Assembly: GCF_035083965.1 (NCBI RefSeq)
Contig: NC_089732.1
Span: 11,423,424-11,487,423 of the forward strand
DNA length: 64,000 nucleotides
Origin: Branchiostoma lanceolatum
Taxonomy: Eukaryota > Chordata > Leptocardii > Amphioxiformes > Branchiostomatidae
Reading direction: 5' to 3'
Shown here: piece by piece, positions 28,101-64,000 of the stretch
Layout of the letters: every line of letters starts with the position of its first letter
How positions within the stretch are numbered: the stretch's first letter is position 1
Notes under the pieces: generated by a model
Databases searched by the model: none
Seen by the model: only the letters and a program-made list of their open reading frames with translations
What the model was told of the DNA's origin: nothing
Translations under genes and position numbers: made by a program

Positions 28101-28438
28101 CATTATGCCCCCCCTCCCCCAGCAAGAGATCACAGTGCTTATTTATCCAGTCAGACGCATTGGAACACGCTCTTAGTGCTTGGTAGGCAGACAGCGATTC
28201 TGCCTTTCCAAGTGTTTGGTCTATGAATTCCCGAAGGCGTGTCCCGAATCCATGGTCTCGGAATGTCTCAAAGATAAAGTCTGGCCTCTCTGCTCTTCGT
28301 TTCTCCACGATGTCCTCTTCGACAACCACCGTGACGACATGACCCTTTTCCACCAAGGCCTGCCCAATTGACGCCTCTATCATCCAGTGGCTGCTGAAAA
28401 TCGGCATCGGTACCAACAGAATCTTCTCTGCATTGCTC
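25159..28438 (-). CDS. UDP-glucuronosyltransferase, 5' exon missing
   Basis: Four minus-strand exons (28438-27628, 27289-27070, 26778-26559, 25441-25159) join in frame to about 511 codons. UGTs move glucuronic acid or another sugar from a UDP-sugar to lipophilic substrates in the ER lumen. The mature N-terminus (NAEKILLVPMPIFSSHW) follows an acceptor at 28439. The sugar-donor half has VVSFGSMV, WLPQNDLLAHPKTRAF, the family signature FVSHAGINGVYEALYHGVPM and LFSDQPGN. The last exon carries the conserved Trp/Tyr-rich segment, one membrane helix and a basic tail ending KLKSQ, a KxKxx-type ER retrieval signal. Only the signal-peptide exon is absent; it should lie above 28440 on this strand. The reading frame is intact, so the gene may be active if that exon exists. 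Subfamily not assigned. Confidence 0.92.
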
Positions 28439-28544
28439 CTATAGATACAGATACAGATCATAAGACTCGGGAGAATGTAACCTTGAAGCTTTGGTGTGCT
28501 CCCCATGTCGTTTTCGAGCGGAATCATCCAACGAATGATCGTTT

Positions 28545-32715: not shown

Positions 32716-35700
32716 ATGGGGTGGATTGGACGAGTAATAATCCTGACCCTTTCTGTGGCCTGGCTCGGTCTGGTCACCTGTGTCGTCGGTAAGAAAGACA
32801 TTTTCTTAGCAATGTTCTTACCATTCCCCCGAAATATAGCATAGTTCATTTCAAGATATGAGCGTATTTTCTACTATATTGGGTGACGTTGCCTGATAAC
32901 ACGTCGAGAGATTAGGAGTGTTACATGTTATTCATGTAATATAGTCTTTCACCTACGCTAAATAGCTAAATTAAGCTTAGGGGTAAGTGCAAATGACCTG
33001 CTTGCATAAAGATATAGAGACCGTTTGAATAGGTACCGGTAGGCATATCTGGTTTGTACTAAATGTACATTGTCAAACAACTGTTTGCCTGGACGGTACA
33101 GCTACAAATGTATTTTTGTTGTTGTCATTCAACTACGATGTTGAAAACAGATTGCACTTCTCGTTCATTTACCGTGTCCCACCAAACAAGAACTCTATGT
33201 TGACCTTTAGGTAGTATCTGACACGGGACGAAAGGCCTTGCTTGACTAAATACGGCTTTTAAAATCCATGCGCCCATTCATCATCATTCATCCATGCGTC
33301 CATTGGCAAGTAGGAATTTGAAATATTTTGGCGATGCCTCAAGAGCACAGCCTTTATTCAAATTCAAGGTTTTAAAGTTTTCGTTTCGTCGGTCCCAGGT
33401 ACAATCCCACCACAGGACTGTGCGGACCTGTTCGCCACCGGCACCCGACAGAGCGGCACCTACACAGTCGGCGAGCCCAGTCCGTACCAGGTCTACTGTG
33501 ACATGAGCTTCATGGGCGGCGGGTGGACAGTTCTTCAGCGCCGTCAGGACGGATCTGTGGACTTCGCCAAGACCTGGGAGGAATACCAACAAGGGTTCGG
33601 CGATCTGGGCGGAGAGTTTTGGTTGGGACTGGACCAGATTCACACACTAACTACCGCGAAAAGTAACATTCTCCAGATCGAGCTTGAAGACTTTGATGGC
33701 GGAAGGAGGTACGCGCGATACGGCACTTTTTCAGTCGGGGATTCGAGCGGTAATTATGTGGTGTCCATCTCAGGGTACAGTGGAGACGCAGGGGACAGTC
33801 TCACTAACAGTGGTAGTAGAGGACGATACAACATAAACGGAAGAATGTTTTCTACACAGGATCGTGACAATGACGACAACAGCGCTCATTGTGCGTCTTT
33901 ATTCAGCCAAGGCGGTTGGTGGTACCCTGCCAATTGTGGACAGTCCTTCCTGAACGGAAAGTATAACTGTCACCAGAGTTCGGTCACCTGTGGCGGGTCA
34001 CAGGGTGTCGTCTGGGTTGGATGGGGAGGCACAAGCTACTTCTTGAAGAAAACAACCGTCATGATCAGACCTGCTGACTTCACAGGTAAAATGAAATATT
34101 CTGTCCACTGATATTTACATAGTAGTGACGGATTAAAGAAAGGTCTATCATTGTCTTACTTGTTCATGCCGTCTTATTCAGTCGTTGAATGTTTGTTGAA
34201 TGCAGTCTCTAGCGCAAAACGCTGAATATAGTCTCTAGCGAAAAAACGCTGAACTGAGAGGAGAAATTCTAAAAGTAATATTTTTTTACGTCTGAATATG
34301 TAACGTTATAGTCACATGCTATATTGTTACCAATTGTCTGTCCGTCCTTTCATGTTACGTACTAGCTATAGCCTACGGGCAAGAACTTGCAATAAACTTA
34401 TCATAATTATTGTATTAACCATTGTCCATTTGACATTTAAGACTTGAAATTTAAAACTTGTTTGTCACATCAGGCTCAGACACACCCCAGGACTGCGCCG
34501 ACCTGTACGAAGACGGAATCATAGAAAGCGGAGTCAACGCCGTCAGCGATCCTCGCGTCTTTGTCTACTGCGACATGCGGAACTCGGGCGGCGGGTGGAC
34601 CCTGATCCAGCGCCGACAGGACGGGTCCGTGGACTTCGCTAAGAACTGGGCAGCTTACGAACAGGGATTCGGAAACCTCGATGGAGAACATTGGCTAGGA
34701 CTGAGCAAACAACATCAGATCACGGGACAGAAGACGTACAGTTTGCGGGTCGATTTAGGAGATTGGGAAGGTCAGAGTAGATACGCGACATACAGCAGTT
34801 TCAGTGTTGGGGGCAGCAGTACGGACTATCAGGTCAGCATCAGCGGCTACTCAGGTGATGCTGGAGACGGTCTCACGAGCGGTGGTAGTCGTTTTAGTAT
34901 AAACGGTATTAGATTTACAACCTCTGACGACAACAATGGCCCCAACAGTGATAATTGTGCAAGCAGCTATGGTGGCGGTGGATGGTGGTTTCCGGACAGT
35001 TGTGGGTACGCAATGCTGAACGGACGGTACAACGACTCGGGTAGTGCACAGGGTATTCACTGGCAAAGATGGAAAGGCTACTCATATTCATTGAAGATGG
35101 CATCACTGAAAGTAAGGCCAGATAACTTTCAAGGTAGGATACCTTCCACTCAGTATCCTGTTTTGTTGACATATCATCAGCGAGGTAATTGTGTATACTT
35201 TCTACCAAATCTATGTACTCTAGCTAAAAGTGCATGCTGCAAGTGCATCATATTAAGACACTAAAGAAAAGATATGTTACAAGCTGACAAAAGGGTCCGG
35301 ATCCGTTTCTCTATGTTTTGTTTCTACTCAGTTTGCGCAGAGGGAACTTTCGGATCGTCCTGCTCTGGAACATGTCACTGTCTGAACGGGAACTCCTACT
35401 GTAACCACGTGACAGGAGCGTGCTTAGGTGGATGTGCCGACGGGTGGGCCGGGAGCAACTGTCAAACAGGTAAAAGGATGTGATAGCCCATTTAACAGGT
35501 AGCAATGAGTTAAACTTATTGATCATGAGGTCTTCATTCAATAATCTTGATTCAATAATCTATGCCGTAGTAAGGTTGGCGAAATCTGCCTTTCCTTTTG
35601 ATGTGAAATGCAAGTACCCATGTATAAGACAGGGTTAGGTCCAGTTAAATTATTGGTACATCGCTGTTTCACGTATCATTTTTGCAGCCCAATTTTAGTT

Positions 35701-38700
35701 ATGCAATTGCGCAAGTGCATAATGCAATGATGATATAATAAAACACCGGCACAAAGCCAAGGCCGCAAAGAGCCAAACATCAAGAGCCAAATTCTCTCCA
35801 ATTCCAAATTCTCTTGTTCTTTCAACAGGCCTTGTCATCTTCTTGCATTCTGTGGTATTATACTGGTTATATCACGGAGTTACAATTGAAATATTGAAGC
35901 AACTGTGCACCGGTACCCTCGCATATTTTGGATCTTGTCAATCTTTCATTGTTTCCTTGTAGTATCAGTCCCTCCACAGTTTGTTCAGCCGACACCAGCA
36001 GACAAAACGAGAAAATTAGGGCGAGCCCTTATCTGGACCTGTAAAGCTACCGGAGATCCCCTTCCCACCATCACGTGGTGGCACGGCGGTGACAAACTTA
36101 CAACGACAAGTACAACACAGACTGAGTCAGGCGTTCAGTACACTCAGAGCGTCTTCAGCATCAGCGCCGTTAGCTTCAACGACAATGGGACCTACAGCTG
36201 TGTAGCTAGTAATATCGGGGGATTTGAGATTGCGACGTGCTCATTGACTGTCCAAGGTACGATATTTACGAAAGTAACGTCATTGGTGAAATGTTTGTTT
36301 GCAATAAGCTGGGTACTAATACTGTTCTACCATGTGTAATTTCTTAAACATTTACGTGCACAACAAGGATGCATTTTGTTTTGTCTTTGTTTAAACTCAT
36401 ATTTATGCTGTGTAATGGATTGCTAGACCTTAATGGCTTGCAATGAATAGTCTACTGGATCACGATAAACCTTTTTTTGTTTCAGAATGCACATCCGGTG
36501 AGTTCGGGCCCGGCTGTACCGGTACCTGCCACTGTGCGGACGGAGGTTCTGTGTGTGACGTCATGACTGGAGTCTGCTCAAGTGGAGGGTGTGAAGCTGG
36601 GTGGAAAGGGAACGACTGTCAGACAGGTATGGAAGTCAAATTTTACATCTGATCGTTAAAAGATAACCTAATTTTGTTCTTAGATTTTTATTGATCATTA
36701 TTTCATGTTCCTTTATTTCAGTCTGTACTCCCGGTGAGTTTGGACCCAACTGTACGTTCACCTGTCACTGTGCGAGCGGAGGTTCTGTGTGTGACGTCAT
36801 TACTGGAGTCTGCTCTAGTGGAGGGTGTGAGGCTGGCTGGAAGGGAAGCAGCTGTCAAACAGGTACAGATTGACTAGACAGTCCGCCATTATGGTTCGAC
36901 CGTATACAGCAGTCACCTGCATTTTCCATATTCGGCCATAAACATATTAAATATCTTGCACGTTAACGTTATATGACGGTCGCCACGTCTATGACGGAAC
37001 ATGCTTAAGGAAATCTAGTTCTAAATTTGATACATGGCTTTCTCATTTTCCACCCTAGCCTGCAGTCTCGGTGAGTTCGGCCCCAACTGTGCCCACACCT
37101 GTCACTGTGCGGACGGAGATTCAGCTTGTCCCGCCGACACCGGAGTCTGTAGAAGTGGAGGGTGCGCTGCCGGATGGGAGGGGGGCAGCTGTCAGATTGG
37201 TGAGGGCAAGTTTTGATTGTTTTGCTTTGATTTAAAAGTACTTGGAATCATAGCTGCAACAACCCACAAAGTTGGTATAAGCTGTCATGGGTATTTTGCA
37301 CATGATCCATTGTTATAAATATACGTAGGTCATAAATTGTTCAAATGTACTTCCAACTTCACAGATGTAAACGAATGTGATACCAATGCCGACAACTGCC
37401 ACATCTACGCAACATGCTCCAACACAGACGGATCCTTCAACTGTTCCTGTAATCCAGGGTACCAGGGGAATGGTACATCGTGCACTGCAGGTGAGCCATT
37501 AGACCTTTGGATACCACATGATTACCTAGCCATAGGGAATGATGCCTACTGGGTTGCAATTTCTTCGTTCTGTATGAAAATAATTGGACGAGAGTCTCTT
37601 TTAACATAATATATGCTAGCTAAGATTGTATGCTCAAAAGCATGATGAATTTGTATCATACGTGCATATTTTGGCGTGTTCTCAGCGGAGAAACTGTATT
37701 CTGTTTAGGTATTCCAGAACAAAAGGTAGCTGGGCCACCTTTGATGTGGGTCATCGTGGGTACTGTGGCAGGTGTCATTGCCATTGGTGCAGTTGGAGCT
37801 GTGGTTTTCTGTTGCAGGTATGTACAGCGAAATATGTTATAGATCTGGGATATTACAAGTACACTCGATCTCCACAATATCTCTGCACTTGGTTTAAAGT
37901 TAATACTACCGTCTCTATGGAAATATCATGAGTGTTTTTTTACCTCTAATTTATACCTTGCGGTGATAAAATTCGTATGCAGATTTGATTGAATTGCCAT
38001 AAGGATTTTCCATACTCCTAAAAGTTTTAAATGAATTCAGTGTAGCTTGACATTTCTTTTATAATGGTTCTATCTGTTCCATTCATTTGTGACTTGAAAT
38101 AAAGATGTTATAACTAAGTTTTAAGCAGCTACGGTGAGCCAAGAATTTGAAAGTATATTTTTATCCCGACAACGTAGTGATGCATGCTACCATATATCAT
38201 TGCATTTGCAGAAGAATGCATACAAACGTTCCCAAACAAAGGAGTGTGCCACTGAAAGACATCGGCGATCATCCAGAAGAACTTTGTGCTAAAAATGATA
38301 CATTTGACCCAGACAATTGCATGGATACATCTGTACGTATTTCCACATTATAACACATTTGCCAAAGATGCAGGACCTAACTTTAACAAGAGGACATTGG
38401 CGTTTTCGTTTGTACAGCCACTGTAAAAGAAAACTCCAATATCCAATGTTCTGTTCGTAACTATAACAATTATTTTGATTTCATTTGGCTTTTCAATATA
38501 ATCTTTCAATTTGCCTACGTTCTCACTATATCAATCATGTTTTGTATCTATTTTAATGACTCATTCGATGCTCCACACATATCCTCCACGAATAACATTT
38601 TTATGCCTTCAGATTTCTCAACGTCTATCAAGCCTTATCACAGTTGCAGACGTACAAACGTTTCTAATGGACAATGGCCTGCAAGAGTGTGCAAGAGCTT

Positions 38701-41700
38701 TCAGGGGTATGACTAACATTCACTATTATATGAGTGACCTCCCTTTTTATTCACGTCACCAAATTGTCAATTGAAAACGTAGAACAACACGTAACATTCA
38801 TAAAAGTAAGTCTATTCTTGTTAGATCACAAAGTGGCATTGAGATTAATGTCATAATGTCGATGTCGAAAGAGATTGAACAAGGTATTGAACATTATATG
38901 ATTTGCTAGCACGAATTAAAGCATATGCAATACTGGTGAATCTACTGATAGTGACCTCTATGTCTCGTTTGCAGAGAATGACGTTGACGGAAAGGCTATT
39001 CGCCATCTTGATGACGCCATGATGAAGGACCTTGTTCCTATGGTCGGACCCAGAGCGCGACTTAAAGCTGTGCTGCAGGAGTTCAACGGGCCACGAGGAC
39101 AGAACCTGCAGGTGTGTAAAAGCTAAAGACAGTCAAAATCGTATGCATTCGTTTGCTTTCCATTATTCTCATTTACGCTGTGACCTCCATGCGCATACTC
39201 TGCAGGTTTTGTCGGAGTCACCGATCTCGGCCCTCAACTTCTGGGAAATCCCCCGGTCCAGTCTGAAGCTGGGCAGGCGGCTCGGTAGGGGGCAGTTCGG
39301 GGAAGTTCGACTCGGAAAAGTCCGCAATCGGGGAGTGAGGACCACTGTGGCTGTCAAGACTTTAAGAGGTAGGGAAACTCACCCAGTTTTTGCAACACCT
39401 TATGATCTAGGCTAATCATTTATGCAGTAGAAACCCTCCCTGTCACAAATTATCAACCGTAAATTGTGTACCAGTTTGCAATGCACCAACCCAACTTGCC
39501 CTAGAGCATTAGTGTGTGGTTTTACATTTTTTTGTACGGCGAAAATACCTTTACCATGAAAATGTATGTATTGACCTGCCAACATGGCTTACCAAAAATA
39601 TTGTTCGAATCTATCAGACTCCGCATCTGACAGTGACAAGAAAGACCTGCTCGGAGAGCTGGAGATCCTGGTGACTGTGGGTCGTCATGACAACATCATC
39701 TCCCTGGTTGGAGCTTGCACAAAAGACGGTGAGTTCATCGATCAAGTTTATCAACAAGCTTAGGGACCTGTCACACTTGTGCGTATATTCAAGTGTGCGT
39801 GAGTTGCGCATTAGCAGGTTTTTTTTTATTTAAGTAAATTTTGCGTGGAGGAAGTTGTTTTCTACTTTGACCCACCGTTGAGTAGTCTAGTTATCAAACC
39901 AAAGAAATTACTTCTTCGGCTGCAAACGTAACCTACACCAAAACATGTTAATACGCAACTCATGATCATGTGGGCTTGTATATACGCACAGGTATGACAG
40001 GGGGTTAAGAAACTATAGCAATAGCTATAGGTACAGTTGCTTGATAAACTTATTCATCGCTATTCACACCTCCCCCCATATCCCCAGATCCATTGACCAT
40101 TGTGGTTGAGTACGCCCCTAATGGCTGTCTGAGGGACTGGCTGAAGACCAACTCTGCTGAGGCCATGAACTCGGAATACCAGAATCAGCCTGATCCAGCT
40201 TCTGACCTTCCCATGGAACAACTCATCCAGTTTGGCATCGATGTATCCGCTGGGATGAGTCACCTAGCGGCTATGCAGGTAAAATATCCAAACATTCATG
40301 TGTACGTTTCTCAAACACCGTAAATATCTGGAATGGTCTTTCATTACATACAAACATGGTTGGTATTGTCAAACATTGAAGGTACACATCTTTCAATTCA
40401 GATAGTTAAATGTTGTCAACACCTGAGTGAGAATTGACAGACTTTATTTGACAGAATTGATTTATGAAAACATTGAATCAAAATCCTCCCCACAGTGTGT
40501 CCACCGTGACCTTGCAGCAAGGAACATCCTGCTTGGGAAGAACCTGGTGGCCAAGGTGTCTGATTTCGGACTGTCCAGGGACATCTATGAAAGTGAAGAG
40601 TACGTTAAGACTGCAAAGGTAAGGGTTTGCGAGATATAGAAAACAGGGTGAGTGTACAAACCTGTTTTGGGGCGTCCTTCCATTGCAATCTATGATCTTA
40701 CATTTGAAAAGTGTTCGACAATTTAATTGAATGACTCGACGACAGTTGTCATGTTATTTCTATCTCAGAGCAAGCTACCGTTGCGGTGGATGGCCTACGA
40801 GTCACTGTTCTACAGTGTATACACAACTCAGAGTGACGTGTGAGTATGGGGATTTTCCATTTTACGTGAACATTGAATATAGTATACGTTATGGGTCTGA
40901 CATATTTATTGATACCAAAAAAAAATGATATCAATTTCAATAGCTACATCTTAGTTATTGCATGGTACTAGAAATGATACCGATCCTCATATTCTATATC
41001 ATATACTTATCTATGACACATGCAAACAATTCACTTTAAAACCAATTATATGATTGTGTGCGTATGTGATACACGTTATCACTTCCTTGTTCTCTATTCT
41101 GTAGCTGGTCGTTTGGTGTTCTCTTGTGGGAGATTATGACCATGGGTATGAATGCACATTTATTTTTGATATCAAAGTGATATATGTATATTTGTCTGGA
41201 AAAGTATTGTAAATTGTAAAAAAAACAAGAACATATAATATATAGAAAACTGGAACATTTGGAGAATTAGAAGAAGAGTGCATTTAGTCCGAAATTATGA
41301 TTATGGACATGCTATGTAGATTTGGTACTGACGTTCGCTATGTTTCGTAACTTTCGTAATAGAGTGCACATTTAAATTTGAGCTGGGTTTGGATCAATAC
41401 ATTAAACATTTCACCCCCTCCCCACCCCATTGTAGGGCATCTACCATACGAAGGGATGAAGGGTAAACAGATGATGGATATAATCAAAGATGGCGGCCGG
41501 TTGGAGAAGCCATTGCATTGTCCGGATGAACTGTAAGCATACATTCAGCAACATCCCGACTGCAACTTGTCGGTATTGCTAAGTACATTCTAAAATCTAC
41601 AACATTTATCATTTGTTCCTGCTAAGGAAACATTAACGTGGCATATCAAACATTAATAACTTTTTTTGTCTAAAAATTTAAACCACTTTACAAAATATAT

Positions 41701-42085
41701 CTGTACAGCTTCGCCTTGATGGAAGACTGCTGGAAGACTCTGTCAGAAGACAGACCAACCTTCCCTCAACTGAAAATCAACCTGGAAAGGATTATTCAGT
41801 CACATAAGGTAAAAGTCTATAAATATATATGTTTGATTTATGCCCTGTTTTCATGTATACATGTAGCTATGCAGATTTCCTGCCATTGCCAATTAGTAGA
41901 TGAAGCGCCGGCGACAGATTCATCTTCGACAGGATGTCTTGGTCACGTTTAGTCTACGAATGATCCTTTTGCGACTTTAAACCTAAACATACATGTATAT
42001 TTTGATGCTTGATGTTGTTCTGTTCAGATGTACTAAATTGTGTCCTTTTCCTCTCCAGACGTACGCTTCACTCCTTCTTGAATAG
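32716..42085 (+). CDS. RTK-A: FReD/Ig/EGF receptor tyrosine kinase with a SAM domain
   Basis: Twenty-two exons splice in frame to 1261 residues: 32716-32788, 33399-34085, 34474-35133, 35332-35469, 35963-36256, 36486-36626, 36722-36862, 37059-37199, 37365-37490, 37709-37817, 38212-38332, 38613-38706, 38975-39111, 39206-39368, 39618-39728, 40088-40278, 40496-40618, 40769-40839, 41105-41145, 41436-41532, 41709-41808, 42059-42085. Order: signal peptide 1-24; FReD 25-253; FReD 254-473; EGF to 519; Ig to 617; EGF x3 to 758; Ca-type EGF to 800; TM about 812-835; juxtamembrane to 877; SAM 878-954; kinase about 974-1250; very short tail. Catalytic residues are present: GRGQFGEV loop, Lys1005 in [12 protein letters not shown] 1112-1119, DFG 1132-1134. 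The kinase most resembles the FGFR/RET/VEGFR group ([17 protein letters not shown]). It should phosphorylate tyrosines after ligand-induced clustering; the ligand is unknown. I know no named vertebrate gene with this order. Confidence 0.9.
33399..34085 (+). CDS. RTK-A exon 2: first fibrinogen-related domain
   Basis: A single phase 1-1 exon encodes the whole FReD: PPQDCADL start, [20 protein letters not shown], then [12 protein letters not shown] (the Ca-binding loop) and GGWWYPANC near the ligand pocket. FReDs of ficolins and related lectins bind acetylated sugars; binding here is untested. Confidence 0.93.
34474..35133 (+). CDS. RTK-A exon 3: second fibrinogen-related domain
   Basis: Another phase 1-1 exon ([43 protein letters not shown]). 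It is a paralogue of exon 2 and ends with a shorter segment before the last strand. The calcium-loop region reads [12 protein letters not shown], poorer in Asp than the DxDND of exon 2 and of the RTK-B counterpart. Confidence 0.92.
35332..35469 (+). CDS. RTK-A exon 4: EGF-like module 1
   Basis: Cys-rich 46-residue module ([29 protein letters not shown]) of the laminin/MEGF-like type. Intact here; its counterpart in RTK-B has lost the acceptor. Confidence 0.88.
35963..36256 (+). CDS. RTK-A exon 5: Ig domain
   Basis: An I-set-like Ig domain: PPQFVQPTP start, the first Cys in [11 protein letters not shown], the core Trp pair ITWWH, and [13 protein letters not shown] with the second Cys. Phase 1-1 exon. 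Confidence 0.92.
36486..37490 (+). CDS. RTK-A exons 6-9: three EGF modules and a Ca-type EGF
   Basis: Exons 6, 7 and 8 are each exactly 141 bases and begin with CxxGEFGPxC, showing serial exon duplication. Exon 9 differs: [18 protein letters not shown] followed by [14 protein letters not shown] is a calcium-binding EGF pattern (D-x-N-E-C). Confidence 0.9.
37709..38332 (+). CDS. RTK-A exons 10-11: transmembrane helix and juxtamembrane
   Basis: Exon 10 encodes a Gly/Val/Ile-rich helix ([20 protein letters not shown]) ending CCR, followed in exon 11 by basic residues (stop-transfer) and the conserved VPLKDIGD stretch shared with RTK-B and RTK-C. Only here do the exon phases change from 1-1 to 1-2 and 2-0. 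Confidence 0.88.
38613..39111 (+). CDS. RTK-A exons 12-13: SAM domain before the kinase
   Basis: The two exons join to a typical SAM pattern: [17 protein letters not shown], then F-x-END-x-[13 protein letters not shown] and [16 protein letters not shown] domains mediate oligomerisation or partner binding. Position between the membrane and kinase differs from Eph receptors, where SAM follows the kinase. Confidence 0.88.
39206..42085 (+). CDS. RTK-A exons 14-22: tyrosine kinase domain
   Basis: Nine exons give a complete kinase. [11 protein letters not shown] opens it as in FGFR/RET. The helix C Glu lies in LLGELEIL and the hinge in VVEYAPNG. The activation loop runs from [16 protein letters not shown] to [11 protein letters not shown], where the usual APE triplet is [19 protein letters not shown] follows, and the end pattern is [15 protein letters not shown]. 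The tail after the kinase is about ten residues (TYASLLLE). Confidence 0.92.
39760..40007. mobile_element. PIF/Harbinger-like MITE in RTK-A intron 15
   Basis: Inverted ends GGGACCTGTCACACTTGTGC and its near-complement (GCACAGGTATGACAGGGGG) enclose 242 bases, flanked by TTA on both sides (39760-39762, 40005-40007). A three-base TTA duplication fits PIF/Harbinger-type elements. No coding capacity. Confidence 0.7.
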
Positions 42086-44194: not shown

Positions 44195-47100
44195 ATGGGG
44201 TGGATAGGACGAGTAATCCCGCCTCTATTTATCGCCTGGCTCTGTCTGGTCACCTGTGTCGTCGGTAAGAAAGACATTTTCTTAACAATGTGCTTACCAT
44301 TCCCACGAAATACGACTCATAGCTCAATTTTCAAGATATGTTCGTATTTGCCACTGTAATAACGTTGCTTTGTAGATCGTCGACTCACTCATTATGTTGA
44401 CAATAAGTATGTAATATTTTCTTTTACCATCTACCCGAAATAATTATTACTCAATCAATCTCTCTAAACTTAGACCGAGGAGCTTTCTCTACAGGGGGTG
44501 AGTGAAAAGGATCGGCTTGTATAAAAAGAAGGATACCGTTTTAATAAGTACTCGTAGACGTGTATGGTTGGTTTCTCCTGAATCTAGATTTTCAAACGGC
44601 CTACCGCCTAGACACTTGGTTGGTGGAATGACTCAGTTAGCTCCTTTTGTCGTGCATGCTCGTTTAACTGGTATGTTTTTGAATGTAATTCTCGTTCATT
44701 TCACGTTTCGTATCCAAAACAAGAACTCCATTGTGACCTTTTGGTAGTACCTGGTGCGGAAAGAAAGACCTTGCTAGACTGAATACGGCTTAAAATTTGT
44801 AAAAGGGGAAGGGTACTGTCCAAGTCCATTGGCGAGTAGGACTATCGAATATTTTGGCGACGTTCGTCTCAGGTACAACCCCACCACAGGACTGTGCGGA
44901 CCTGTTCGCCACCGGAACCCGTCAGAGCGGCATCTACACAGTCGGCGAGCCCAGTCCGTACTGGGTCTACTGTGACATGAGCTTCCTGGGCGGCGGGTGG
45001 ACAGTCCTTCAGCGCCGCCAGGACGGCTCCGTGGACTTCGCCAAGACTTGGGGGGAATACCAACAAGGTTTCGGTGATCTGGACGGAGAGTTTTGGTTGG
45101 GACTAGACAAGATTCACACACTGACTACCGCGAAAAATAACATTCTCCAGATCGAGCTTGAAGACTTCAATGGTGAGAGGAGGTACGCGCGATACGGCAC
45201 TTTTTCAGTCGGGAATTCGAGCGGTAATTATGTGGTGTCTATCTCTGGGTACAGTGGAGACGCAGGGGACAGTCTCACTAACAGTGGTAATGACGGACGA
45301 AACAACATAAATGGAGTAATGTTTTCTACAAAGGATCGTGACAATGACGCCAACAGCGCTCATTGTGCGTCTTTATTCAGCCAAGGCGGTTGGTGGTACC
45401 CTGTCAGCTGTTCAGAGTCCTTTCTGAACGGGCGGTATAACTGTCATCAGACTTCAGTCTCCTGTGATGCGTCACAGGGTGTCGTCTGGGTGGGATGGGG
45501 AGGTGCAAGCTACTTCTTGAAGAAAACAACCATCATGATCAGGCCTGCTGACTTCACAGGTAAAGGATATTCTGTCCACAAATATGTACATGGTAGTGAC
45601 GGATTGAGTGGTAATTATGTGTCATTGTGTGTCATTCTTTTCCTCGTTTATACTGTGTTATTGAGGAGGTCCTAAAGTCGTTGAATGTTTAATGAATGTA
45701 GTCTCTTGTGCAAAACGCTGAATGTAGCTAGTCTCCAGCGAGAAACCGCTGAATTGAGAGGAGAAATTCTAAAAGCATTTTTTTACGTCTAATAGGTATT
45801 AACCATTGCCCATTTAAAATTTAAGGTAATTCTTTTTAATCAAGATCTCTTCTTACAGATTATGTCTGTTCCAATTACAATGGCATGTAAATTTGTTATG
45901 ATACCTGTTTTTCACATCAGGCTCAGACCCACCCCAGGACTGTGCCGACCTGTACGAAGACGGAATCATAGAAAGCGGAGTGAACGCCGTCAGCGATCCT
46001 CGCGTCTTTGTGTACTGCGACATGCGGAACTCAGGCGGCGGGTGGACCCTGATCCAGCGCCGACAGGATGGGTCCGTTGACTTTGCTAAGAACTGGGCAG
46101 ATTACGAACAGGGGTTCGGAAATCTTGATGGAGAACACTGGCTTGGGCTGAACAAACAGAACCAAATCACGGGACAGAAAACGTACATTTTGCGAGTCGA
46201 TTTATCAGATTGGGAAGGTCAGAGTAGGTACGCGACGTACAGCAGTTTTAGTGTTGGGGACAGCAGTACGGACTACCAGGTCAGCATCAGCGGCTACTCA
46301 GGCGATGCCGGAGACAGTCTCACGAGCGGCGGTAGCCGTTTTGATATAAACGGTTTGAGATTCACAACCTCAGACAACGATAATGACCCAAAAAGTGGTA
46401 GTAATTGTGCGCAAAGTTTTGGTGGCGGTGGATGGTGGTTTCCGGACAGTTGTGGGTACGCAATGCTGAACGGACGGTACAACGACTCGGGTAGTGCACA
46501 GGGTGTGACCTGGGAAAGATGGAGAGGCTACACTTACTCTTTGAAGATGGCATCACTGAAAGTAAGACCAAATGACTTTGCAGGTAAGATGGATTCCGCT
46601 TGGTATCCTGCTTTGTTGAGATATCATTTCATGTTGAGAAAACGCAGTGAATGTGTATACATGAGTATTTAGACCAAATCCATGCACTCCAGCTAATGAG
46701 CGCTATACATAGTACATCATATTAGAGCACTGTCCTGCTCTGACACATGTCACTGTCTGAACGGAAACGCCTACTGCAATCACGTGACCGGGGCGTGCTT
46801 AGGCGGATGCCAGGACGGGTGGGCTGGGAGCGATTGCCAAACAGGTAACATTATTGCTAACCCATTTAAAGTGTAGGCACAGTTAGCAATGAGCTAAATG
46901 TAGTAAGATCGTAGATCATTTAGAATTGATAATGTATGCAGTAATAAAGTTGAGGTAATCTGCATCTCCTTTGAATTCATGAGAAATGTAAATGAAATGA
47001 AGTGCACCATGCAAAAGTTGTATAATTGTAATTCATGGCGCACCCACACAAAGCCAAACCGGAAAGATGTCCAATGCCACACATCAAGAAAAACAAATTC

Positions 47101-54403: not shown

Positions 54404-54634
54404 ATGCGATGCCTAAAAGGACCAGTGTTCATGTTGTTGATCTTTTCGTCTTTTACGCAGGCGTCAGCAGGTGAGTGGTGAACCTATCAAGATCTTCACA
54501 CATTGATTTTAGATACCAGATAAGTCTGAGATATACAGGATCTTACACAAAGCTAGCTGTACATACACTACCCATTGTTTACTGTCTGTAACTTGTAGTA
54601 ACTAAGACCATTTCAAAAGGTTACCCAGGTATAA

Positions 54635-54705
<71 letters not shown>

Positions 54706-57700
54706 GAGAGATAGATAGATAGATAGATAGATAGATATTCGCCAACATTTTTTCAGTACCTGCTCAACCTTGCATAACCTATGTCCTATGATATGCGTCG
54801 TATAATGTACTCCTCTACATAACTTACAAAATGCCAAATAATGAAATTCCCATCATCTCCCACTAATGATTTATTACGGTATTTTTGATCTTATTCATAG
54901 AAAAAATGTATAGAAGATACGATGATTTTCATTCCAGAATACACAGACCTGTTTGACCACAGTTACAATAAAGTTATGTCTGGAAATTATGACCATGAGA
55001 TCAACGATATCACCGCTGACGGGTGTGCCGAGAAGTGTCTGAAAGGAACCACTACTGTACCGGAGGGGGAGTGTTTGTCCTTTGACTACTGGAAGTCACA
55101 GAGCAGATGTCAGCTACGCAGAACGGCCAACCAGTCACTGGTTAGTGACGACAGGTTCGACCATTACAAGATGAAAGGTAGAATCAGTCATTACCTGCAC
55201 GTAACGAAGATTTAAGCATGCCCAGGGTTAATGCTGTAATCTTGATGTTAGAATTTGCGTTACTATATAAAACAGAAATCTGTTAATATAAACTAATATT
55301 AATAATAAACACATAGAAGTAAACATTTTGGAAACTTTGCAAAGTGTTATTGTCATGACTCTCACAAGAAACTCTTCAATACATATACATTTTCATAGAA
55401 TAAATTTACAGTAGTATACATACAGAAAGAAGAATTGTTGAAGGGCCAGTTCATGTAACAAATCATCTTTTACTTGGCTGTAGTCAGATCTGAGAAAGAT
55501 CTCAGCAGTTGTTTAAATTGTCAGTTTATTTATTAACAAAAGTCTTCTTTGGAGCATATTTATGGTACAAATCGTCGTTCATACATCTTTCGTCAAGCCT
55601 ACAGGATACACTGATAGTTGTATGTATTTACTTGACAGAAGTATTTGTCCTTCAGATATTCTGAGCTTCTTCACCGTGTACCCTTATCATGTCCTACCCG
55701 GACACGACCATGCTGATGTCCGCCCACAGACTGTAAGTCCCCGGATCTGCATCCTGCAATGTTTGCTGGGAGGCGGTGGCCTCTCGGTAGGGTCCTGTCT
55801 GTCTTTTGACTTGGACGGTCTGGGTCATGGACGGTGCCTGTTGAGTAGAGACAACCAGGTGACAGCCGGAAACGCACTGGCCTACAACCGAAGATTCGAT
55901 CACTACCGACGGAACGGTAGGTTCAACTGATTCTGGTTTTGACTGTTATGTATTGCTTTTCTCTCTTTATTTCTTTATTGTTTTTCTCGACCCCCTCCCC
56001 CCCCCCCAATATCAGAGTCACAGACATAATATCGATTTACAGGTTAGCAACTACGTTTTATACTTCTAACGATGGCATGTCTTCTCTTGAAACCATAGGG
56101 CTCTGTATTCCGAATCCCTGCGTTCACGCTCACGAATCCTGTAGGAACGAAGCAAACGGCTACAACTGTACCTGTGATATGGGATGGGAGGGAGACACTT
56201 GTGAAACGTTCCCAGGTATTTACATGTGACAATAGATCCTTCTACAACAAAAGTCAATGAAGAGTTTATTAGTTATCATGTAATTAATATCAACTTTAAA
56301 AGTTGCCCTCGACTTGAGCATTCGCAGATCATTGATTTATATCCTAACAATTAGGCGGTCATTTTCTCATGTTTAGAGGGCTCCAATCTATAACTGATAT
56401 AGACAGTCTTGATCAAACATGCACCTGTACTATGATACAAAGGTTACTTCACGAGGCCCACTCAATCAATATATCATGTTTTAATGAAAACCATGGATAA
56501 GGGGCTTTGTTGAGTGATGTTATTAGACAACTTAGGCTACTCTACTTTCTTCAATCACCAGATTCAAAATAGTAGGATTTGTAAGGAATTCAACATGTTG
56601 AATTTGTATGAAAACAGATCGACATTTTTGTCATTATTGTACGAGGAGCTCCCATGAAATTCCTACCTTGTTTGCCAACAGACGAATTCTTCTTGTTTTT
56701 TGTGTGGTGGTTAAAAGAAATAGAATACAGACAGATCAAAATAGATTACGACGATGGCAATTAATACCCTTACATCTTATTTCAAAACTTTAAAAACATT
56801 TTAATATATTCAGATGTAACTAATGTTAAAAGAAATGCCCCGCCCCTGACAAAATTCCCACCCTTTTATAGAGACGTAGTCTTGGCCTTGCAGGAACGTC
56901 GAGGGGAGAGGGAGATCCTGTTGAAATATATAAGGATAGAATTCGGTCAAACAAAAACTTAATGATGAAAATATGAAATGAGGACCGCATGATTTGGATT
57001 AACTTATGTATGTAAAACACCGATAGCAAAACTCAATAGCAACTAGAAAGGCAACATTTGCGAGCAAATACAGCATGTTTAGCCATACTCCTCGCCATGC
57101 AAAAAATGGACTTTTTCATAATCATTCCAGCTCAAAATTGAAAGAAATAATTAAAGAATCCTCCCCTTGCAAGAATGGGATATTCCGTGCCATTTCCATG
57201 TAAACCAGTCGAAAAATATCCGCTGAAAATTACACACTTGCGCATAATCAACCCAGTTCAAAATTGAATTAAAAAAGATCAACCCCAGGGAAGAATGAAG
57301 TTTTCCATAGTATACATATGAAGATTTGACAGGAGACGAAGGAAATGACCAAAAACAACATATTTGAGTCAATTCAAAGTCACCGAGAGGGTTTTAATAT
57401 AATATTTGTAATATGTTTGAACTATTTTGATTAAAAGAATGTCTAAGTCACAATAGTTCTAAAGTGTTCAAACAATTAGAATTGAAACTTATAACATGTT
57501 TGAACTTATTTCACATACGTTGGAAACATTTCGAACGTAACTACACAAAAATCTCTTTATTTAGAACAGTTTCAAACCATCTATCCAAATGTTTCAATGT
57601 TCGAACAATTTGTAACAAAATATTTTCACAATTGCCCTCATAAACGAAGGTGCTAAGTCCTCCTGTGTGTTTCTGCCTATTTTCGGTGGCCGCGCTAGAC

Positions 57701-60700
57701 CACCAGCGGATTTGTTTTGACGGAGCGTCACCCGCGCGCGACGATGTACACTGTTCGGCACCGCTAATATCCGGCATTTTCCCGCTCCAAAACACTCCAC
57801 AAGACCCACGTTTTTAGTGTTTTGCCTCTTGTGCAACACGATTCGATTTGCATTACTAACGGGACGAAAATGATAGAAAAAATTCACCCCGTCCCGGCGT
57901 CCGTCCCAAAAACATGAACGACATGAAAATATATTTTCTTACAGATTCAATCACGAAAATCAACAGCATGGGATTCCAAATTTTCGCAACGGCCGACCAT
58001 TTATCATGGTTGAACTTCCTTCCAAGGCGTGCGATAGATAAACATTCCCGGCACATAATAGTCACTAGTACCAGACTAACGCAAAAACGCATGTCCCCAG
58101 TGAGACCATGTGTTTTGCGCGGCATGCCCCGAATCCGTCTACCATTGCTGAATGTAGCCCGATTCATAGAGGTCTATTTTGTAAGCATTATTTCATGTAC
58201 CCCTCAGCGTGAGAATTCCTTGTGCAACACTTCGCTACATTATATGTTTAAGTTTCCCCGGCCCCGCGCACCGCCTACCACCCGCCTTTGATCATGTATG
58301 AAGTCGGCGGCAGAGAGAGATCATCAATCAATTTTGACAGGAGTGTCGCGCCAGTCTGAGGAGAAACGATCTCCCGTGTTGTGTTGAAGAATTTGGAGTT
58401 TGAAAATATCTGGAATAACTAATGCTAGAATAAACATTCACAAAATCATTGATTTAACTTGTTTTCTGTTATAAAATTTCCTAAACTGCAATTTAACCAC
58501 TGAGTTTAAGGGAACATGGTGTTTTCCCGATAATCACGTTAAATGTTTATGTCCGGTCTTTCCTCCTCGTAAGCAAACTTCTAGCTTGGCCAGGTGCAAG
58601 GCACTCGGGGTCAATGACCTGTAGGTCATATGTAGTATTGAAAGTGACAGAAGTGGCAAATATTGTCAAGAAAGCCCAAAATAAATCGTTCTGAATATAT
58701 GTATGCCAAAAATGGGAATGTAGTCCTTTAAATATTTGTTCAAGCCACATATACAGCAAATTTCAGGTCATTCGGTTGAAATACCAGGGCGCAGGAGGCC
58801 AAGATATGCTAAAAATAGCCTAAAAACCTCAATAAAATCACTTTCAAGGTCAATATCAAAACAAGGAAAAGAACGCACATTGGTTTTTGCCTACATTACC
58901 TCTGTACCAAATTTCAGGTCATTTGGTCAAAAAATGACAGAGATGAATCGATTTGAAGATTTGACAGGAGAAGAAGAAGAAGAAGAAGAAGAAGAAGAAG
59001 AAGAAACATGAGAGAAAACAATATGTTTAGCCATACTTATGGCTAAACATAAATATTTGCATTCCCTCTGTCTCTCTCAAAAATTGTCAACACTACTTCA
59101 CAAACTTACTGGGACAGTTTATTTCCCAATTTAAACTGGAAGAAAATATGGAAAGCTCAAGCCTTGAGTATGAAAGAGAATATGTTGAAAGAATTCAACA
59201 GCAAATTACTCCACAAAATCCTTCCTTGCAAATTTTTACTCCACAAATGGAACATAGTATATACCATTGGGACCATTTATAGCCCGAAATGTGAGATATG
59301 TAACCAAGAAGATAACAACGTACATAATGTTCTTTGAGTGTACAAGGTTAAATGACAACTGGGAAAAAGTTAAAGACTTTCTGAAAATGGCATTAACAAA
59401 GATATCAATAATACAGCACATGTACTCTTTGGGGATAACTTACATGTCACCCTTGGCAAAATATGCCATTTATCTAAGTATCTTGGCTCAGCTACAAACT
59501 TTTAAGGCAATCTTGAGTCTCTTCGAAAACATAATGTATTACATCTGTATACAACTCAGAGTAATGTTGGTGTACATTTCATTGAACAAGAAGTGTAACA
59601 TACTATGTGAGAATACAAAATACCGTCAAACAACGACTTACTGTTGTAAAGTAATATACCTGTATTGATTCTGCTGTGATAACAGCACATTGGTAGCTAC
59701 TCACATGTATATGTATTACTAGATAGCCTTATGCTAAGATGTATTAATTGACATCCACATCTGTATACAACCTTGTGCAATGTTGATATGCATCTCATTG
59801 AACCATTGAACTCGAATGTAAAGTTAAAAGAGACTTATAATGTTAACTCTACTATGATACCAAAATTAGTTGCGATTATGTTGTATGTATTAATCACGAT
59901 TGTTCCACAGCTGATGTGCACCTAACTGAATAAAGTTGGAAAGAAACATCAACGGAAAACCCATAGCAACAAACCCATATCAAGATAGCAAATAAAGTGT
60001 CCATCACACACAAAGAAATGGAAAAAAAACCTGCAGAATATTGAAACAAATTCAAAAATGAGAAATATACATCGAATCTGCATGAGCATTGGCATCTTAT
60101 TTTCCAGTAGTACCTGAAAAAAAGATTTTTGGTTATTCATGAGATAAAGTATGACTATATTTGCCGTGTTTCACTCTCCTTCAGGTATCATCAGCCCACA
60201 GAACTGTGCCGATCTGTCAGCCATAGGAATCCAAGCCAGCGGAACTTATCTTGTAGGCCACCCTCAACCATTCCCAGTCTCCTGTGACATGGACACTGAT
60301 GGCGGTGGGTGGACGGTCATACAGCGGCGGCAGGACGGGTCGGTACCATTCAACAACACCTGGGACGTGTACGTGCAGGGGTTCGGTGACATAAGTGGAG
60401 AATGGTGGTTAGGACTGGACAAGTTACACGACCTCACCACACAGACACAGAATGAACTGTACATTTATTTAGAGGACTGGGAAGGAGAGTCCCGATACGC
60501 GCGGTACAGTACGTTTTCTGTGGGAGATTCGGACAGCAACTACACGGCAACACTTAGCGGATACAGTGGGGATGCAGGTGACGACTTGACTCCAACTGAC
60601 GGGAGTGGACGCCATAGCATCAATGGCAGACAGTTTTCCACAAAGGACCAGGACAACGACGACAGTGATTATCATTGTGCATCTATATTTGGACAGGGGG

Positions 60701-63700
60701 GATGGTGGTATCCCACAAGTTGCGGTTGGGCCTTACTGAACGGACGGTACTTCACGACTTGTTCCACTACAACCCCTCCCTCCTGTAGTACTGCCGACGG
60801 TATTGTCTGGAAGTCCTGGAAAACTTACAATTACTCTTTGAAGAACACAACCATAATGATCAGGCCGGTCAGTTTTCCATGTAAGTGTTCGATGAACATT
60901 TTCTTGTTGAGTAGAGTCGGGTAGAGCAGATAAGATAAAAACAGACCAAGAGAAATGATTGGGAAATATTAGATGTCATTAGTTAAACATAGATAGATAA
61001 CTGTTTTGTATCATCAAATCATCACCAATGATTTTGTTTTCTTTCTTTCGTCAGCCTCTTCACTAGACACATGTCAGAATAGAGGAAACCTGACGCTAGG
61101 CACGCCGGGAAGTGGAGTTTACAACTGCATCTGTCCGGCTGGATTCGAAGGGACGTTCTGTCAACTGGGTTAGTGCATTGATACATAACGTAGAGAGGAT
61201 ACCAGTATGTTATAAACTTTATGTTTTCAAAACTATCTCAATATGTCTCCTGGTAGAAAACTCCAAAACGGTTGTTGCATATTTTAGACTGTGCTGACAA
61301 AAGCAATATTGACGGATAAGCTTTGTGTCTAATCAAATCGAGATGTAAATGGTCTGACTGGCTTCATTACACTATTACCAGGCCTTATGCCTTTTCTGTA
61401 GAACTGTAGCCAAGAGGTGTCGATAGTAACATCGATGATGGCTCAGTCTATCATTTTCTCGATTTGATAATAAAAATTTCATCCAAAATTCTCTTTCATC
61501 CTTATCTTAGACTACAGATAAAATCCATAGTAAATGTACTTACCCCTGTTTCTGACTTAAGCGTGTAATGCTGGTGAATTTGGACCCGGATGTACCGGTA
61601 CCTGTCACTGTGCGAGTGGAGGTTCTGTATGTGACGTCATGACTGGAGTCTGCTCTAGTGGAGGGTGTGCTGCTGGGTGGAAGGGAAACGACTGTCAGAC
61701 AGGTGAGTGTCTTTGTGCATTATTAAACAAAATGATACATAAAACGCTGTGTATTTTAGGATGCTTATGTCAAGATGTACTCAGGCATCTTACAAAGTAC
61801 GATTTAGCATGAAATGAGCAAAACCATTGTTTGGATGCAAATTAATTTCCCCAAAGCTACAGTCACAAACAGTACATGTAGCCTACATATCATTCAGTGT
61901 ATGGTAACTACGCCTTTTTCGATTCTTTATACACCCCACACGCATGACAATGTAACATTTTCCGAGCTTAGAAAATAAATAAGCAGTGACAAATGCATGA
62001 AATATATATTATGCTTTCGTGAATTGTCTTGGCTGCTTAGAATGAAGGAAAAAAAGAAATCATTATGCAGGAATAGAGTGATGCAACATTTTTCATACTT
62101 CACTTTAAAGAGTGCAGCCCCGGTGAGTTCGGTCCAGACTGTACCGGTACCTGTCACTGTGCGAGCGGAGATTCCGTGTGTGAGATCGCGGACGGAGTCT
62201 GCTCTAGTGGAGGATGTGCGGCTGGGTGGAAGGGATACGACTGTCAGATGCGTAAGTAGATCAAATCATAATTTGGATTGACGTTAATGAACAAGCATGA
62301 ATGATGATTTTACTTGATTTTTTTTTAACCATCACAGCCTGTAATCAGAGTGAGTTCGGACCCGGCTGTACCGGTACCTGCCACTGTGCGGGGGGCAATT
62401 CCACCTGTAATTCCACCACTGGGGCCTGCTCTGGGGGATGCGCTGCTGGGTGGAAAGGCAACGATTGTCAGACTGGTAAGTAAGGGCTTTTAAGACTATG
62501 GAAATTATGTCAAACAGGTGAAGACATGCTTTGCGTGTTTTGTTTTGTTTTGTCTTGTCTTGAAATTCTAGCTGCATCAACTTACGAATTTGGGTCTGAC
62601 TTAGAGTTTTGTTTAGTTTCAATAAAATGTCAAGTATGGTATTGTACAGTGTTTTTTTACACCTGATTCAGTACATCCGACTTCAACGTTATGTTGAACA
62701 CAGCGTGATATTGTTCAAATGCATCTCCGACCTTTCAGATGTAGACGAATGCGACACCGATGCCGACAACTGCCACATCTACGCAACATGCTCCAACAGG
62801 GAAGGGGCATTTTTAAGGCATACCATATTGTCTGTTAAACGGCATGTTTTGAAGAGATTGTATTCTATTTAACATTCCAGAACAAGCTGGGCTACCTTTG
62901 GTGTGGATCATCGTGGGTGCCGTGACAGGCGTTATTGCCATTGGTGCAGTGGGAGCTGCCGTTGTCTGTTTCAGGTACGTGCTTTAGAATTGTTAGGTTT
63001 ATATTTTTGGTAGATTTGGCATATTACAATAACTCCAAATACGTACCGACAACATTTCTGCACTGAGTTTAATCAAAGCTCTTGTATCCAGGAAAATGTT
63101 TCGTCCCCTCTAACACACCATACCATAAGGATTTGTCAGACCCTAAGAAGAAAATGCAAATTCTGTTTAATGTAGTATAACATCTTTACATAATGTAATA
63201 TGTTTGATTACGCTTAGTTATTGATTAGGTTATTTTGTAATTGTATATTTTAAAATGGTCATTATATCTGATGTTGGATGTACCTCTGTGGGGTGAGAGC
63301 TGGAAAAGGCATCATAGCCTGTTCTCCCATTATCCCTTCCGCATTTGTGGTGAATTTTGATAAACAGATAAACAAATGTAAGCTATTGATTGATTTCATT
63401 TTTCTTAGATAAAGTAAAAGTAGCTGCGTTTTGGCAACAGTTTGAAACTATTCCGAGCAAATGGTGAACCTGCCTACAGGCCTGCCTACGTGCACAGGCC
63501 AGAAACTGGCCCCTTGCTTTCCAGGTGGATCCTCCAAGAAGTCCTGTCCCGTGCCCAAGCCTCTGCTTCCCGCAGGTTTATGCCAGTGTCCTTCACAATC
63601 TGGTTTTTCCATAGTGAACAATATTGCTAAAAACCTTTGTGTTTGCAGAAGAAAGAATAAAAGCGTCTCCAAACAAAGAGACGTACCACTGAAAGACATC

Positions 63701-64000
63701 GGCGATAAGCTATGGACAAGTTGTGCTAGAAACGAAGCATTTGAACCAGAAAATGACGGAGATACATCTGTAAGTATTTCCTAGCTCAATAACATTTGTC
63801 GAAGATAGTGGAGCTACTTCAGTAGTGATTTCAATTGCACGATAGCCTTCACTAGTTGGAATCTGATGTCTCGATCAGGCTAAGTTTTCACTTTATCAAA
63901 AATGTTGGTGTCTATTTGCATGGTTTATTTGATGCTCTGTCTTTTACAATTCTAACATTTTTGTACCCTCAGATTTCTGAACGTCTGTCAAACCTTACCA
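54404..64000 (+). CDS. RTK-C (partial): PAN/EGF/FReD receptor of the same array
   Basis: Exons seen: 54404-54470, 54938-55177, 55656-55916, 56099-56215, 60185-60880, 61055-61168, 61562-61702, 62111-62251, 62338-62475, 62881-62974, 63649-63769, and 63973 onward, cut by the window end. Order: signal peptide (FMLLIFSSFTQASA), two PAN/apple domains, EGF, one FReD, four EGF, TM ([18 protein letters not shown]), the VPLKDIGD juxtamembrane shared with A and B, then the start of SAM. A Ca-type EGF exon before the TM is truncated. No Ig domain. All ectodomain exons are phase 1-1. The kinase exons must lie beyond 64000, so calling it a kinase rests on identity of the TM, juxtamembrane and SAM exons with RTK-A and RTK-B. 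PAN domains bind proteins or sugars in other families. Confidence 0.87.
54635..54736. repeat. Compound TA / GA / GATA microsatellite
   Basis: (TA)n, then about 50 bases of (GA)n, then (GATA)n in RTK-C intron 1. ORFs across it are repeat artefacts. Confidence 0.97.
54938..55916 (+). CDS. RTK-C exons 2-3: two PAN/apple domains
   Basis: Exon 2 has the PAN spacing with GCAEKCLKG, CLSFDYWKS, RCQLRR and a terminal FDHYK. Exon 3 repeats it (ICILQCLLGG, SCLSFDLDG, RCLLSR, FDHYRR). The shared ending suggests an internal duplication of one exon. Confidence 0.82.
58545..59045. repeat. Dispersed repeat with CAAATTTCAGGTCATT units and GAA tail
   Basis: The word CAAATTTCAGGTCATTxGGT occurs twice (about 58757 and 58913). 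The block then has a (GAA)n run (58970-59005) and a small palindrome TGTTTAGCCATACTTATGGC with its complement. AGATTTGACAGGAGA also occurs at 57321 and TGTTTAGCCATACT at 57077, so related pieces lie 1.6-1.9 kb upstream. Confidence 0.6.
59105..59668 (+). mobile_element. Frameshifted LINE ORF2 C-terminal relic
   Basis: One frame reads NWKKIWKAQALSMKEN, then FNSKLLHKILPCKFLLHKW, and a zinc-binding cluster CEICNQEDNNVHNVL. The next bases shift by one and it continues FECTRLNDNWEKVKDFL. The Trp-Lys-Lys-Ile-Trp, Leu-His-Lys-Trp and CxxC-x-H-x-C patterns are those of the region after the RT in vertebrate-type L1/L2 LINEs. The frameshift shows it is dead. Confidence 0.72.
60185..60880 (+). CDS. RTK-C exon 5: fibrinogen-related domain
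   Basis: Single phase 1-1 exon: [33 protein letters not shown], calcium loop DQDNDDSDYHCA, GGWWYPTSCGWALL. It contains an extra Thr/Cys-rich loop (TTCSTTTPPSC) in the pocket region, comparable to the CHQSSVTC loop of RTK-A FReD 1. Confidence 0.93.
61055..62475 (+). CDS. RTK-C exons 6-9: four EGF modules
   Basis: Exon 6 (LDTCQNRG to GTFCQL) is a distinct, diverged EGF. Exons 7-9 are the CxxGEFGPxC type seen in RTK-A and RTK-B and are 141, 141 and 138 bases long. Confidence 0.88.
62739..62815 (+). pseudogene. Truncated Ca-type EGF exon of RTK-C
   Basis: The exon starts normally (acceptor [26 protein letters not shown]), but after CSNREG the sequence jumps to intron DNA matching that before the RTK-B TM exon (TTGTCTGTTAAA). 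The second half of the domain and the donor are missing. Reading through gives about 18 foreign residues and a stop. Skipping it joins exon 9 to the TM exon in frame. Confidence 0.78.
62881..63769 (+). CDS. RTK-C transmembrane and juxtamembrane exons
   Basis: The TM exon (62881-62974) and the 121-base juxtamembrane exon (63649-63769) match those of RTK-A and RTK-B in phase and sequence, including RRKNK and VPLKDIGD. They show that this gene belongs to the kinase array. Confidence 0.88.
63190..63380 (+). mobile_element. Probable LINE 3' end in RTK-C intron
   Basis: A GTACCTCTGTGGGGTGAGAG segment and CTGTTCTCCCATTATCCCTT are followed by a GATAAACAGATAAACAAAT tail. The layout is that of a retrotransposon 3' UTR. 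No coding part. Confidence 0.4.

Follow-up and report, generated by a model that had tools for sequence, protein, structure and literature searches.

A lancelet gene predicted to join a double fibrinogen-like head to a SAM-kinase, and receptor phosphatase models with a very similar head

The subject of this report is a gene in a 64,000-nucleotide stretch of the Branchiostoma lanceolatum genome (contig NC_089732.1, positions 11,423,424 to 11,487,423 of the forward strand; referred to as the window, the numbering of which is used throughout). We confirmed, at the level of gene models, that this locus, designated copy 1, is one genuine gene that joins two fibrinogen-like domains (FReDs) to a tyrosine kinase. 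The predicted chain has the order signal peptide (SP)-FReD-FReD-EGF-Ig-EGFx3-calcium-binding EGF (EGFca)-transmembrane segment (TM)-SAM-kinase and is probably a type I receptor tyrosine kinase that belongs to a SAM-kinase group of receptors; it would be clustered by a ligand and would carry a Grb2-type docking site. To this reading we assign a probability of roughly 0.7. The main interest lies in the head, which is common to kinase and phosphatase models.

Gene structure and the neighbouring copy

The first-pass annotation of the window had described an in-frame model of 22 exons and 1261 residues, and both figures were recovered when the splice model was rebuilt from anchors read off the sequence (32716-42085, plus strand, without an in-frame stop). 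All 21 introns are of the GT-AG type and 94-610 bases long, and every exon boundary from FReD1 through the TM exon lies in phase 1, the ectodomain exons being phase 1-1 throughout (Table 1). A public B. lanceolatum prediction, P0001 (1277 residues), equals the splice model with 100% identity over 100%, the sole difference being a start 16 residues further upstream.

The domains named at first pass (two FReDs, EGF, Ig, three EGFs, EGFca, TM, SAM and kinase) likewise hold up when judged by Pfam, cysteine pattern and hydropathy. Pfam returned Fibrinogen_C twice (5.5e-129), Ig_3 (1.8e-14), EGF_3/EGF_CA, SAM_1 (8.8e-06; 26.4 bits, cut-off 23) and, at 4.3e-90, a tyrosine kinase in which the catalytic motifs, including GxGxx and DFG, are present; the SAM domain (residues 887-944) lies N-terminal to the kinase (974-1243). 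The EGF that precedes the Ig and the three that directly follow it fall below the Pfam cut-off and were identified by their cysteine pattern and by profiles built from them. Hydropathy (19-residue windows, threshold ≥1.6) has exactly two peaks, a signal-peptide-like one at residues 7-25 and the TM at 815-833. The best solved match of the SAM domain, Polycomb Scm (E = 0.0036), is too weak to assign a SAM subtype. FN3 was not found in P0001 with Pfam or with module profiles.

Table 1. Positions in the window of the exons of copy 1 and of the two neighbouring related genes
Feature	Positions	Strand	Basis or content
Copy 1, exon 1: start codon and signal peptide	32716..32788	+	splice model, hydropathy; similar start in P0002, P0004, P0005
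Copy 1, exon 2: FReD 1; calcium motif retained, no acetyl-pocket residues at the aligned positions	33399..34085	+	model, Pfam, alignment
Copy 1, exon 3: FReD 2, calcium motif eroded	34474..35133	+	model, Pfam, alignment
Copy 1, exon 4: EGF 1	35332..35469	+	model, EGF profile
Copy 1, exon 5: Ig (I-set)	35963..36256	+	model, Pfam
Copy 1, exon 6: EGF 2	36486..36626	+	model, EGF profile
Copy 1, exon 7: EGF 3	36722..36862	+	model, EGF profile
Copy 1, exon 8: EGF 4	37059..37199	+	model, EGF profile
Copy 1, exon 9: calcium-binding EGF	37365..37490	+	model, Pfam
Copy 1, exon 10: TM, residues about 815-833	37709..37817	+	model, hydropathy
Copy 1, exon 11: juxtamembrane (JM) linker	38212..38332	+	model
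Copy 1, exons 12-13 with intron: SAM, between TM and kinase	38613..39111	+	model, Pfam
Copy 1, exons 14-22 with introns: tyrosine kinase, insert EYQNQ (YxN, Y1076)	39206..42085	+	model, Pfam
Copy 1, stop codon	42083-42085	+	
Copy 2: 19-exon model, about 1116 residues	44195..53291	+	FReD-FReD-Ig-EGF-EGFca-TM-SAM-kinase
Copy 3, runs off the window	54404..64000	+	SP-PAN-PAN-EGF-FReD-EGF-EGFx3-(decayed EGFca)-TM-JM

Copy 1 leads a series of three related genes that lie side by side within one 31-kb stretch of the window. Between copies 1 and 2, the ratio of nonsynonymous to synonymous substitution rates (dN/dS) is 0.29 (95% interval 0.22-0.36; 1100 codons in 19 shared exons), with values of 0.24 for the ectodomain, 0.32 for FReD1, 0.20 for FReD2, 0.20 for the Ig, 0.32 for the SAM domain and 0.18 for the kinase, while the 23 codons of the signal exon (0.56, 0.13-2.12) are too few to inform. 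Purifying selection is thereby indicated on the extracellular and intracellular halves alike. For this comparison exon 9 of copy 2 was started at the AG-preceded position 48326; one model starts it at 48323. The EGF1 exon of copy 2 (46728-46844) has decayed, with its first residues and first cysteine lost, and separate EGF3 and EGF4 exons were not found in this copy; stalk length differs between neighbouring copies.

Five other FReD-FReD kinase models (P0002-P0006) were available, three of which (P0002, P0003 and P0004) have the full module order of copy 1; P0005 and P0006 are without some of the EGFs. The sources of P0001-P0004 are B. lanceolatum, a floridae x japonicum hybrid and B. belcheri. 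When 13 junctions were compared in four models besides copy 1, they were aligned wherever both flanking modules exist, with small gaps at some junctions and with modules missing in P0003 and P0006. The kinase is uninterrupted, among P0002, P0003 and P0004, only in P0002. Poly(A) hexamers occur within the gene at chance level (7 observed, 7.7 expected).

The double-FReD head and what it may bind

In a full-length search, 16 of the best 120 of 314 matches carry Pfam entries for both fibrinogen C and tyrosine kinase, as do 13 of the best 120 of 488 matches to the FReD-FReD pair, and all of these are named Branchiostoma. The first-pass annotation had proposed looking in databases for the two domains in one chain, and at least 16 lancelet proteins among the 120 matches listed have them. 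The restriction to Branchiostoma refers to these best matches, within the protein lengths covered. A stricter census of 206 proteins among the matches listed in the full-length and kinase searches counted 13 FReD-plus-kinase, 4 FReD-plus-phosphatase and 1 FReD-plus-seven-transmembrane proteins.

When entries are ranked by their match to the FReD-FReD pair, the first 11, among them that of the query itself, comprise six kinases, four receptor phosphatases (P0007, P0009, P0012 and P0013, all outside the window) and one FReD-FN3 protein. The phosphatase models have a double-FReD head as in copy 1, each FReD being 61-86% identical to its counterpart, and two phosphatase domains replace the SAM-kinase part; HCSAGVGRT and HCSSGAGRT, and the WPD loop in the first domain, are kept in all four. 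P0007, encoded on a contig equal in length to that of P0001, has the whole FReD-FReD-EGF-Ig head (86, 79, 89 and 74% identity to copy 1), and the head tree joins it to heads of B. lanceolatum kinases on an unstarred branch (91/91). P0009 and P0012 have FReDs in common with copy 1 and a different Ig (44 and 46%), the model of P0013 shows no EGF or Ig, and Ig plus FN3 stand in the ectodomain of three of the four. These phosphatases are known here as predicted proteins.

Kinase and phosphatase heads do not fall into two clean groups in the head tree. Such intermixing is expected from exchange or conversion, and chimeric models would look alike; with one of eight branches starred, the tree is too weak to date the kinase/phosphatase split. 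We tentatively suggest that a single double-FReD head on kinases and phosphatases makes them paired receptors, through which one ligand could either stimulate or dampen phosphotyrosine signalling. The two sets of heads would be kept alike by ectodomain exons that are exchanged or converted, the phosphatases with a very similar head would probably respond to the ligand of the kinases with the opposing activity, and the outcome would depend on which receptor a cell displays. An inhibitory tyrosine-based receptor, the product of a different gene, is reported for B. belcheri in a passage of PMC8211107.

FReDs are also predicted on a lancelet adhesion-type seven-transmembrane receptor (P0011) and on lancelet Cys-loop channel-like proteins (P0050 by Pfam, P0051 by precomputed domains). 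Snail FREPs, like copy 1, have Ig and FReD in one chain; they are secreted and without TM or kinase, both of which copy 1 adds.

Among solved chains, FReD1 is closest to angiopoietin-1 (best) and FIBCD1, and FReD2 to FIBCD1 (best) and tenascin-R (second). Residues Y405, H415 and Y431 of FIBCD1, which we take to be the acetyl-binding pocket of lectin-type FReDs, are absent at the aligned positions of copy 1 (S, G and G in FReD1; G, G and S in FReD2). They are absent at these positions also in the other lancelet FReDs aligned (P0030 being gapped at Y431; the P0035 rows, from a coral, could not be aligned in this comparison) and in angiopoietin-1, a protein ligand. The outcome for Y405 depends on the alignment, with an insertion nearby and a tyrosine one column off in FReD2 and several others, and H415 and Y431 are the firmer losses. 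The calcium site (393, 395) is kept in FReD1 (D and D) and reads N and G in FReD2 of copy 1, and D and D in FReD2 of P0005, which has the head of copy 2. An acetyl-lectin head is thus not supported, the sugar-sensing reading is weakened by the missing pocket, and a protein or matrix ligand appears more likely than an acetylated sugar, as far as a comparison of the acetyl pocket can show. The earlier idea that recognition and kinase signalling are merged in one chain therefore survives in part: gene structure, the second copy and other lancelet models speak for the single chain, and the lectin-like character of the recognition is not borne out by the pocket residues.

Two other functions of such a head have to be weighed. 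The protein could be a cell-adhesion or self/matrix-recognition kinase similar to DDR, with FReDs that bind matrix as in tenascins. The rank of tenascin-R among the matches of FReD2 and the Ig plus FN3 ectodomains of three phosphatase models would suit this view, which we nevertheless regard as rather unlikely; RGD, KGD and LDV, the only motifs sought, are not present. A lectin-type pattern-recognition receptor kinase, with FReDs that would recognise sugars (acetylated ones or others of microbes) and set off phagocytosis or defence, we consider unlikely. FReDs are widely used as immune lectins, FIBCD1 is the best solved match of FReD2, and tandem expansion with module exchange would suit immune genes; against this stand the FIBCD1 pocket residues not found at the aligned positions (Y405 with the reservation given above) and the mean dN/dS of the two FReDs between copies, which gives no sign of overall positive selection. 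In support, passages of PMC10199209 describe Grb2-dependent phagocytosis through an exon-shuffled receptor, encoded by a different gene, in B. belcheri, and PMC12373286 reports that dispensable lancelet genes have in common an enrichment for protein tyrosine kinase activity, fibrinogen not being mentioned in its main text.

The kinase half and a possible signalling route

A kinase tree was calculated for 51 domains, 23 of them SAM-kinase rows (copies 1 and 2 of the window plus 21 of 32 SAM-plus-kinase proteins), with no Eph kinase included. The 23 rows, all from lancelets, form one clade (100/99). Apart from it stands a Tie clade of three rows, one of them the lancelet's own (100/99), and a branch with weaker support (90/91) unites the SAM-kinases with Tie, some kinases of corals and a starfish receptor. 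By this tree, the kinase of copy 1 is a member of a SAM-kinase receptor family seen here only in lancelets. Other predicted lancelet receptors of this kind (P0010, P0016-P0020, P0022, P0024, P0027-P0030 and others) have the same SAM-then-kinase intracellular part and differ from copy 1 in their ectodomains (FN3, Ig, EGF and others), and ectodomains differ among the members of the clade. A SAM-kinase tree of 27 rows was calculated as well, from which six of the 32 proteins had first been removed because they were duplicates, partial or chimeric: P0001, represented by copy 1, and P0003, P0005, P0021, P0054 and P0062. The FReD-FReD kinases copy 1, P0002, P0004 and P0006 cluster in it (93/96, below the star threshold), and the presence of FReDs takes at least three changes, the absence of FReDs from a SAM-kinase model being possibly itself a prediction error.

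In the kinase search, the non-lancelet entries among the best 120 of 5875 matches are mostly FGFR, plus RET, coral and MET-like kinases, with 44-48% identity to copy 1, and rank after some entries with two or three kinase domains. These kinases have different ectodomains and lie on branches separate from the SAM-kinases, and the FGFR-named rows themselves are not one group. Eph receptors carry SAM C-terminal to the kinase, and Eph was rejected by this position only, SAM preceding the kinase in copy 1.

Tie receptors are bound by FReD ligands and have an Ig-Ig-EGFx3-Ig-FN3x3 ectodomain without FReD or SAM. The parallel to Tie1/Tie2 drawn at first pass is good as an analogy, Ig, EGF and kinase being combined in both, and fails as kinship: the ectodomain of copy 1 (FReD-FReD-EGF-Ig-EGFx3-EGFca) itself carries FReDs, and the assignment to Tie was rejected on the position of the kinase outside the Tie clade. 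A fusion of an angiopoietin-like ligand with its Tie-like receptor, in which the tethered FReD would act in cis or on the Ig/EGF stalk of a neighbour, could account for angiopoietin-1 as the best solved match of FReD1, for a weak match of the Ig-EGF part to the Tie2 ectodomain (1.3e-10, below many other Ig proteins) and for the 90/91 branch, on which Tie and certain coral kinases are the closest neighbours of the SAM-kinases. Besides lying outside the Tie clade, however, the copy 1 kinase reaches 277.6 bits with Tie2 and 282.8 with FGFR1, its best single-kinase-domain match among solved structures, whereas P0134, the lancelet Tie-like protein, reaches 431.7 bits with Tie2, and such a fusion is very unlikely.

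If copy 1 is the ligand-clustered type I receptor that we favour, a putative ligand, for which a protein or matrix surface is a better candidate than an acetylated sugar, would bind the FReD head and cluster the receptors, with help from the SAM domain; the clustered kinases would trans-phosphorylate Y1140/Y1145 in the activation loop and Y1076 in the kinase insert, and phosphorylated Y1076 (Y-x-N) would recruit Grb2. A YxN is present in the kinase insert of P0001, P0002, P0003, P0005 and P0006 and of many other SAM-kinases; that of P0005 sits in the foreign half of this model, and copy 2 has its own as EYENP. It is absent in the FReD-FN3 members P0016, P0017, P0020, P0024, P0026 and P0030. 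An AlphaFold prediction for P0004 from a 6-row alignment (mean predicted local distance difference test score 28) was not used.

Several points weigh against this reading. The single chain is supported by gene models, and the public models contain errors: P0003 is without equivalents of exons 12, 19 and 20, P0004 and P0006 stop short of the kinase end, with EGF4 and EGFca also missing from P0006, and P0005 is a chimera that follows copy 2 up to exon 14, is one residue off in exon 15 and then, beginning with exon 16, carries the kinase half of another paralogue. The YxN is absent in P0004, TM and JM together have a dN/dS of 1.21 (0.63-2.94) and are hence unconstrained between the copies, and the roles given to the Grb2 site, the SAM domain and the activation-loop tyrosines are presumably those known from their families. 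Passages in the literature add that the same lancelet architecture in two species can be convergent prediction error (PMC4967905) and that architecture differences among lancelets have been put down to prediction error (PMC6071037). The architecture as such is well supported across the models compared, and individual database models are not trustworthy. That an adjacent secreted-FReD gene and a separate receptor kinase gene were joined only by prediction is scarcely credible: lancelet models that fuse neighbours are documented in PMC4967905, one of them in parallel in two species, and P0005 from the same array is chimeric, but the introns between FReD2 and the TM exon measure 95-493 bases, introns of at most 610 bases leave little room for a hidden 3' end and promoter, a second signal-peptide-like peak was not found, poly(A) hexamers are no commoner than chance, every intron between FReD1 and the TM exon is in phase 1, both halves are under purifying selection, the module order recurs in copy 2, and the junctions are preserved in other lancelet models.

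The array, its surroundings and the meaning of the head

In copy 3 the second PAN is below the Pfam cut-off, and the kinase would lie past the window end. Eight ectodomain exons are intact, each with a length that is a multiple of three. The calcium-EGF exon (62739-62880) looks decayed, as a conserved start is followed by loss of the pattern, and a search for its donor (GTGAG) found none before the stop codon. The array seems to keep the plan of stalk, TM and JM while the heads vary; its membrane-proximal and signalling part would be retained, and phase 1-1 ectodomain exons would be gained, lost and exchanged.

About 2.2 kb upstream of copy 1, an open reading frame for a 604-residue reverse transcriptase lies on the minus strand (28683-30497), apparently in a retrotransposon. 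Two further minus-strand reading frames (25162-28542) correspond to the N- and C-terminal parts of a UDP-glucuronosyltransferase and are probably exons of one gene, and a plus-strand frame (12782-13123) has a partial Reeler domain. Scans with Rfam (gathering scores) and for tRNAs gave no match in the window.

Among the literature matches listed, judged by title and start of abstract and not covering the 2008 amphioxus kinome study, there was no description of a FReD kinase; predicted versions of the protein are already present in databases, either without a name or under names derived from FGFR. If it is real as a protein, receptor kinases gain a head otherwise known from their soluble ligands and from lectins. 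The locus also speaks to a debated question, namely whether the unusual architectures of lancelet proteins exist or arise from faulty annotation: copy 1 survives several tests, and at least one of the public models of this array fails. With three neighbours that have a common membrane-proximal plan and different ectodomain modules, the array offers a test case for the recombination of catalytic halves and recognition heads. Should the pairing proposed here be true, kinase and phosphatase with the same head would be an enzyme-built counterpart of the activating and inhibitory paired immune receptors, which are built from motifs.

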